A DNA stretch of 64,000 nt from Lumbricus terrestris (Eukaryota; Annelida; Clitellata; Crassiclitellata; Lumbricidae): assembly GCA_949752735.1 (NCBI GenBank), contig OX457040.1, positions 870,357 through 934,356 on the forward strand, in the 5' to 3' direction. Both the position numbers and the translations under genes were made by a program. Position 1 is the stretch's first letter. The number at the start of each line of letters is the position of its first letter. Shown here piece after piece: positions 45,327 to 60,899 of the stretch. Under the pieces are notes generated by a model that worked only from the letters and a program-made list of their open reading frames with translations, searched no databases and was not told the origin of the DNA.

Positions 45327-46760
45327 ATGGCTTCCATGGAGAAATGTGACCTAGATGCAGAAGTTGCAACTTCAGCTGCTGCAACTTTGGCAGAACCTCT
45401 TGCAAATGATTCATTTTCATCGGCAGTTGTTACTGGTTCTGGAGCAAGACTTGATCCTGGCGAGTCTACAATAATAGTCACCAGGAAGAGAAAAACGGTG
45501 AACAGTTCAAACGCAGAAATGGCAAAAGCAGCAGATAGCGGTTTGACATCCACTTCTGTTGCTGAAGATAATGATTGCTTAGAGGCTGTGATTGCAGTCA
45601 AGTCAGAAAACGGTGAAACTGGCGAAACAGAAGGTTTAGCCTCACCAGAATCCCAGAATTCCGTGTCACCTCCTCGCAAACGTCAGCTTAGAATAAGAAA
45701 CTCATTAGAACCAATTCCAGACAAGAGGGCAAGATCTTCAAGATCCGCTTCAGCTGTGTCAAGCCCAGATAGGTTTTATAATACGCATTCGGTTTCGAGA
45801 AAGCTGAGAAATAAATCAAAGGAGGTTTCAGAATCTCCAACTCTTTGCGCAGAACGCAAATTGAATCAGGAGACCAGCATTACAGACACGTCCATTTCTG
45901 ACATGACCCTCGCAGAGAATTCTGGCTTCTCTGAAAGTCAGGAATCTATCGACGCTGGGACCCTGGAAAGTCCAAAGAAGGAAAGTTCGGAGGAGGACAA
46001 TCACAGTCAAGAAAAAGCGACGAAGAAAGTTCGAAATCCGTACGGTCGAAGGGGAAAACCAAACAAACGCTCAACCACTCCCATTCGTCCGAGTGAGTAT
46101 TTTAAATCAATCAATTAATGTTAACTAAGTTTAGAGTTGGCTGGTAATTGTAATCATGAATTTATATTTGGCTGGTAATCGTAATCATGAATTTATATAG
46201 CACCACTTCAAGAGAAACTTCAAGAGAAACTTCAAGAAGAGAAACTCCCAGATGCACTCTTGACCTGACAGCACCAAACCATAGTCGAAGAGAATGGTTT
46301 TCAAACGCTTGTGGAAAATGGGTAAAATGGGACCAAGATGTTCATTGCAGAGACTGCTAGGTAACTTATTCCAGAAAGATGGACTAATGGTGAGGAAATA
46401 AATAGTTTTCGTATGGACCGGTCTGTTATGATGTTGTGCTTTGGGACTCATGGCAAGAACTACCTTACAGTCAAGGTTCTGTTGTCATGAAGCTACCTTT
46501 AGGATTTGTTTCCTTGAAAAGGTTATATCGGAATTTGTCTTATTAGCCTTAAGGGTTATAAAGGCTGATGATGCATAGTTGTCTTATTGGTGGTGAACAG
46601 AAAGATGTCTTCCCATTTCATTACTTGATTTGCATGTTCACTGATATAGCCATGAAACCAAAGAAGCCAAAGATATCAGAAGCTTTGCCTGTGAAGACAA
46701 AATTGGATCCAACCGAACCTGATGCTGTGATGTCCGAATGGTTGAAACCGTTTGAAGAAG
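45327..46760 (+). CDS. MBD gene exons 1-2, disordered N-terminus
   Basis: Residues 1-292. Low complexity, rich in Ser, Glu, Thr and Ala, with basic patches that look like nuclear localisation signals ([26 protein letters not shown]). ATG 45327 is the first in frame after an upstream stretch with other stops. The donor at 46092 (CCGA|GTGAGT) joins phase 1 to exon 2 (MKPKKPKI...), which ends at the MBD. Confidence 0.8.

Positions 46761-60899: not shown

Follow-up and report, generated by a model that had tools for sequence, protein, structure and literature searches.

In KDM2A, KDM2B and FBXL19 a CpG-reading DNA domain, a PHD finger, an F-box and leucine-rich repeats (LRRs) follow one another in that order, FBXL19 being KDM2-like without JmjC, as described in the available part of PMC3685328. 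The DNA domain of these proteins is a CXXC, which reads unmethylated CpG, whereas the earthworm protein described here carries an MBD; a domain search of it showed no CXXC and no JmjC. Several other systems share part of this design. UHRF1 recognises both methylated DNA and histone H3 and serves a ubiquitin E3, although it does so with an SRA domain, a tandem Tudor and its own RING, and the earthworm protein would use an MBD, an F-box and LRRs. MBD2/3 recruits NuRD and is without PHD, F-box or LRR. BAZ2A/B and MBD-R2/PHF20 hold an MBD (or TAM) together with a PHD, but add DDT/bromodomain or THAP/Tudor and have no F-box, while SKP2 and other FBXL proteins have the F-box followed by LRRs without a DNA or histone reader domain. 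The readers of methylation in invertebrates that two surveys name, in the parts available, are MBD1/2/3 and MBD4 (PMC11292947, PMC8330077).

We analysed 64,000 nucleotides of Lumbricus terrestris DNA (GCA_949752735.1, OX457040.1:870,357-934,356, forward strand), hereafter the window, in whose coordinates position 1 is the first letter. One gene on its plus strand, 45327-60899, contains 15 exons that join into a single 4905-nt frame of 1634 amino acids, beginning with the ATG at 45327 and closed by one terminal stop codon that ends at 60899. GT-AG borders are present at 14 of the 14 introns, and the two other frames of the joined coding sequence hold 75 and 144 stops. An earlier note on this DNA had joined the exons by hand, and both its coordinates and its single frame are borne out (Table 1).

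Table 1. Coordinates of the exons and protein domains of the window gene.
Feature	Position	Strand	Remarks
Exon 1	45327..46092	+	start codon; basic/acidic N-terminal region; from splice model and frame check
Exon 2	46650..46760	+	ends in conserved EWLKPFE lead-in to MBD; exon end identical in 4/4 family genes
Exon 3	47212..47309	+	MBD core: R301, D314, Y316
Exon 4	48141..48168	+	MBD micro-exon, 28 nt, first residue R326; 28 nt in 4/4 family genes
Exon 5	48823..50422	+	rest of MBD, then a basic stretch and the acidic tandem repeat; donor 50422 weak, 50425 an alternative of equal phase
MBD, residues 287-353	46742..48878	+	exons 2-5; Pfam E 5.6e-12
24-nt tandem repeat in exon 5	49533..49960	+	17.8 copies, codes ENVEDKDI/N (acidic)
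Exon 6	51440..51514	+	phase 2-2 exon of 75 nt; C7 and C8 paralogues have small candidate exons of equal phase at the corresponding place
Exon 7	52359..52521	+	PHD finger ligands C905 C909 C921 C924 H929 C932 C946
PHD finger, ~residues 905-949	52393..53718	+	C949 closes PHD across phase-0 intron
Exon 8	53713..54678	+	carries the final zinc ligand of the PHD, then the beta-rich domain, a linker and the bulk of the F-box
Beta-rich domain	53962..54189	+	between PHD and F-box; single-sequence structure model
F-box, residues 1235-1275	54574..55922	+	exons 8-9; Pfam E 4.9e-11; present in C7 and C8 paralogues too
Exons 9-14, leucine-rich repeats	55905-55991, 56616-56836, 57278-57431, 58280-58387, 59379-59485, 60125-60236	+	
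Exon 15	60591..60899	+	conserved C-terminal region, stop codon

The surroundings of the gene were surveyed by eye. Its upstream neighbour appears as kinesin-3-like open frames (20920-35585, plus strand), with a motor-domain motif at about 20.9 kb, FHA-like exons at about 30.4-31.0 kb and a coiled coil at about 35 kb; within these limits, on the minus strand, lies an open frame resembling a fragment of a LINE reverse transcriptase (23201-23938). Two stretches 7481 bases apart, 5475-7709 and 12956-15190, have open frames that translate alike in the parts compared and flank a gag-like frame at 8744-10093; together they are read as a mobile element, probably a retroelement. Almost 3 kb at 1145-4065 (plus strand) consist mostly of a short satellite-like repeat of YVSCIMYLVLCIL units that is open in three frames, and the coding tandem repeat of exon 5 may differ in length between individuals. 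Elsewhere in the assembly, the mitochondrial COX1 reads TGA as Trp and, by eye against known COX1 sequences, has AGR at Ser, ATA at Met and AAA at Lys sites, a usage that fits the invertebrate mitochondrial code. A second COX1-like copy with TGA codons lies in two pieces on another small contig (C318:35670-38654; L055, L056) and represents either another mitochondrial sequence or a copy in the nuclear genome.

The order MBD, PHD, F-box, LRR that had been proposed for the joined protein holds in the light of a Pfam search and of the paralogues described below, although the four domains are not equally visible to single-sequence models. The MBD (45.6 bits against a cut-off of 21) and the F-box-like domain (42.7 bits against 24.3) stand clear of their Pfam cut-offs, as they also do when the domain blocks of the C7 and C8 paralogues are joined and searched, and in the PDB the F-box is closest to that of SKP2 (E 3.8e-8). 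The PHD on its own reaches 10.6 bits, below its cut-off of 24, and the LRR models (E 1.4e-4 and 5.5e-4) lie below their curated cut-offs; the LRR pattern is conserved in three family members. Among the Pfam matches of the joined protein there was no zf-CXXC, JmjC, DDT, bromodomain, THAP or Tudor (for CXXC, DDT and bromodomain, at E up to 1). Between PHD and F-box a single-sequence structure model places six strands of at least 3 residues (mean pLDDT 66.9) in a beta-rich domain that is conserved in 3 of the 4 family members and gave no Pfam match above cut-off and no confident structural match.

When the 1.06-Gb genome was searched with the trimmed window protein, the matched exons defined three paralogous loci beside the window gene, at C7 ~48.90 Mb (plus strand, best E 6.9e-7), C6 ~53.26 Mb (plus strand, 6.7e-5) and C8 ~13.5 Mb (minus strand, 1.1e-3). 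Their architecture was worked out with a spliced aligner and hand checks, and exons were used only if backed by both domain similarity and splice phase; the many mini-exons that the aligner placed in paralogue linkers were discarded, as was all of its output for the C6:53 Mb copy beyond the beta domain. For window exons 9 and 10 the C8 counterparts are incomplete. All four genes cut the MBD at identical positions and include the 28-nt exon, and in all four the last zinc cysteine of the PHD lies in the exon that follows, across a phase-0 intron (pairs CKAC, CQNC, CMKC and CWAC). F-box, LRRs and C-terminal region follow the PHD in three of them, namely the window gene, C7 and C8. Compared with the window copy, the paralogues are identical in amino acid sequence at 46-57% of positions over the MBD, 29-41% over the PHD and 29-31% from the F-box to the C-terminus, and codon position 3 differs most in every pair compared (6/6 for the MBD, 6/6 for the PHD, 3/3 for the LRRs), an excess consistent with protein-level constraint across the family. 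Judged from sequence, these three paralogues in the same genome are the deciding evidence, and confirm that the MBD-PHD-F-box-LRR combination is real.

The fourth member differs. In the C6:53 Mb copy (L034-L037, L043) the MBD, PHD and beta domain are present, but F-box and LRRs were not found in the 26.6 kb after the PHD exon (C6:53,267,378-53,294,000), one scan of the paralogue stretches for these domains having covered the plus strand. They were lost, were never gained or lie beyond the stretch examined, and the ligase part therefore does not appear to be universal in the family. A genome search with the C8 protein gave no further member and also missed this known copy, which leaves room for more distant members.

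Taken together, the domains suggest that the window gene encodes one chromatin-bound F-box/LRR protein that sits on methylated CpG through its MBD and brings about SCF-mediated ubiquitination of a chromatin protein that its LRRs recognise, a reading to which we assign a probability of roughly 0.6. The MBD would dock on methylated CpG, the PHD finger would probably contact the tail of histone H3 in the same nucleosome, the F-box would pass the complex to SKP1-CUL1-RBX1, and the LRRs would pick the chromatin protein to be ubiquitinated. From the domains, a role as SCF substrate receptor at methylated chromatin is likely; methyl-CpG, histone and SKP1 binding, as well as the existence of a substrate and expression of the protein, are what we infer for it. 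By analogy, UHRF1 is the nearest working parallel and functional model: the window protein may likewise unite a methyl-DNA reader, a PHD and an E3 in one machine, by way of SCF and an MBD.

Some F-box proteins act without SCF. The main rival to the ligase reading, which we consider appreciably less probable, is a non-degradative tether, in which the protein would sit on methylated chromatin and its F-box/LRR surface would recruit complexes without ubiquitination. A precedent exists in FBXL19, which is reported, in the part of PMC5997449 available, to act with CDK-Mediator. Within the family, the C6:53 Mb paralogue, having the reader domains without an F-box being found, suggests that the reader domains may also function independently of SCF. 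On the other side, the F-box passes Pfam cut-offs in three members, and the LRR and C-terminal exons are conserved alongside it, as expected of a substrate receptor.

A second possibility is that the MBD or the PHD has lost ligand binding, which would leave an F-box protein of the ordinary kind that carries relics of chromatin domains. The PHD gives this idea its foothold, since it is divergent in three respects: its first ligand pair has the unusual spacing C-x3-C, Trp is missing before the His, and it falls below the Pfam cut-off, as do the PHDs of the paralogues (in C8 no PHD model was among the matches). Yet the eight C4-H-C3 zinc ligands are invariant in all four PHDs, whose alignment has 11 invariant columns in total, the ligands being the majority of these, and a four-member PHD profile searched against the PDB finds the PHD fingers of KDM5B (E 1.3e-5), UHRF1 (3.2e-4), DIDO1 and others among the best 60 of 146 matches. 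The PHD (C4HC3) named in the earlier note therefore stands on its ligands and on the family profile, though not on the single-sequence cut-off. In PHD fingers generally, a missing Trp before the His points away from H3K4me3 reading; the family has MF, LF or GF at this place, similar to the AF of UHRF1 and different from the WF of KDM5B, and so it too points away from that mark.

The three paralogous MBDs score 46.3, 49.5 and 29.5 bits against the same cut-off of 21, the nearest solved structure to the window MBD is MBD2 (E 1.4e-7), and the family profile also places MBD2 first in the PDB (E 1e-10), with the same arginines and tyrosine in the MBD2/3 alignment. MBDs recognise CpG with two arginines and owe their methyl selectivity to a tyrosine; MBD4, however, keeps a tyrosine but turns it away and is less selective, so that the tyrosine alone is insufficient (PMC5240623, in the part available). 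Of the methyl-CpG site, R301, D314, Y316 and R326 are invariant in 4/4 family MBDs, and the window MBD is accordingly placed among those predicted, from sequence, to bind methylated CpG. That these four DNA-contact residues and the eight zinc ligands should all be kept despite the low identity of the surrounding MBD and PHD makes degenerate readers improbable.

The exon 5-6 junction was the point at which the earlier note had doubted its own model, and the doubt over 50422/51440 was justified. The donor at 50422 (CACAAG/gttgta, the stroke marking the cut) has a splice score below 2.5, as does the alternative at 50425 (gtattt), which has the same phase and adds one residue, while that value is reached by four other GTs of this stretch, in phases that break the frame into exon 6. 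The PHD exon, for its part, begins in phase 2 in all four genes at the best-scoring acceptor, which in the window is tied with a phase-1 acceptor. Candidate linking exons with phase-2 introns on both sides measure 75 nt in the window gene, 117 nt in C7 and 129 nt in C8. No similarity of the C7 and C8 candidates to window exon 6 was detected, the C8 stretch has a phase-0 donor at 22399 (score 3.9) slightly above the phase-2 donor used at 22455 (3.7), and splice-site analysis between MBD and PHD of the C6:53 Mb copy identified no linking exon.

It is very improbable that two neighbouring genes were joined by hand here, an MBD gene (exons 1-5) ending at the in-frame stop 50433-50435 right behind exon 5 and a PHD-F-box-LRR gene (exons 6-15) whose promoter the MBD-to-PHD gap could conceal, because, weak donor notwithstanding, MBD and PHD follow each other on the same strand at 4/4 family loci, the best-phase splice candidates link them through a small phase 2-2 exon in 3 of the 4 genes, no in-frame Met is encoded ahead of the PHD in exon 6 or early exon 7, and a hand-made fusion would hardly recur with the same order and phase at separate loci. 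The sequence evidence thus supports one gene rather than two.

With a single protein as the supported product, its relation to KDM2/FBXL19 can be considered. It had been put forward as a methylated-DNA counterpart of that group, which holds as an analogy, in domain order and with an MBD in place of the CXXC, but descent from a common source finds no clear support. Conventional genes of this type are present in the same genome: a CXXC exon at C9:32,077,205, read as KDM2/FBXL19-type, is followed 4 kb further by a KDM2-like F-box-LRR exon (E 8.8e-58, 46% identity), and the spacing and strand suggest that CXXC and F-box-LRR, with a PHD, form one gene; a second CXXC read as this type lies at C4:44.64 Mb. 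A genome search with the KDM2A F-box-LRR matched 17 places, none of them (0/17) a family locus.

The converse comparison, with profiles of the family, covered six F-box or LRR loci on both strands, six of the 17 KDM2A-matched places being available as loci. The F-box-LRR profile gave 42.7 bits, summed over several pieces, for L046 and 32.0 for the KDM2-type L044, which aligned in one piece over profile positions 5-108; with the F-box alone, L048, L049 and L045 each scored above L044. Against the PDB the family profile has KDM2A at the top with 28.6 bits and SKP2 0.2 less at 28.4, and among five PDB alignments those of KDM2A and KDM2B extend well beyond the F-box. The F-box-LRR part is contained in one exon in the KDM2-type gene of this genome and in seven in the family. 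On these sequence comparisons we regard the resemblance as a convergence of design, with an old kinship possible.

A target for the MBD plausibly exists, since a DNMT1-type gene, two loci with SRA domains, two with Tet_JBP and further MBD exons, read as MBD2/3-like (L002), MBD4/MeCP2-like (L003) and SETDB1-like (L004), are present in the genome, and since CpG observed/expected in the window gene is 0.52 in introns against 1.04 around the start. DNMT1 genes are usually intron-rich; in the DNMT1-type protein found here, CXXC and methylase share one open frame of 1462 amino acids (L025/L042, C4:39.45 Mb), which means that this gene has few introns. Coding sequence of the window gene has a CpG ratio of 0.85. 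The pattern is the kind of depletion that would be expected of gene-body methylation, and it is moderate given a whole-window value of 0.81.

The earlier note knew of no described family with this domain order, and none appeared in the titles and abstract openings that we surveyed. Nor did that literature, to the extent of its titles and abstract openings, contain a description of MBD and F-box in one animal protein, animal proteomes lying outside the scope of the comparison; in the available main texts of the two invertebrate surveys, PMC11292947 and PMC8330077, the word F-box is absent. Two protein-database searches returned no match among 7999 and among 26 candidates, in a database that we take to hold few or no animal proteins, and a third returned five matches of 7999 candidates, LRR proteins in which Pfam found neither F-box model. 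Because the database is presumably poor in animal proteins, its searches are silent on the spread of the family in animals. Orthologues may well exist in databases, unnamed, and novelty is not proven; what we rate as new is that known modules occur in a combination not found described and are conserved as a small family.

We therefore put forward only tentatively, at somewhat less than even odds, that these genes represent an undescribed family of SCF substrate receptors that would read 5-methylcytosine through an MBD and thereby cause local ubiquitination, with at least three full members beside the conventional KDM2/FBXL19-type genes that read unmethylated CpG. The role of methylation in invertebrate genomes is poorly understood, and a reader joined to a ubiquitin-ligase adaptor offers a direct and testable output for it. 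A family at methylated CpG would stand opposite KDM2/FBXL19 with their action at unmethylated CpG, and it points to a way in which DNA methylation could directly guide the ubiquitination of proteins.
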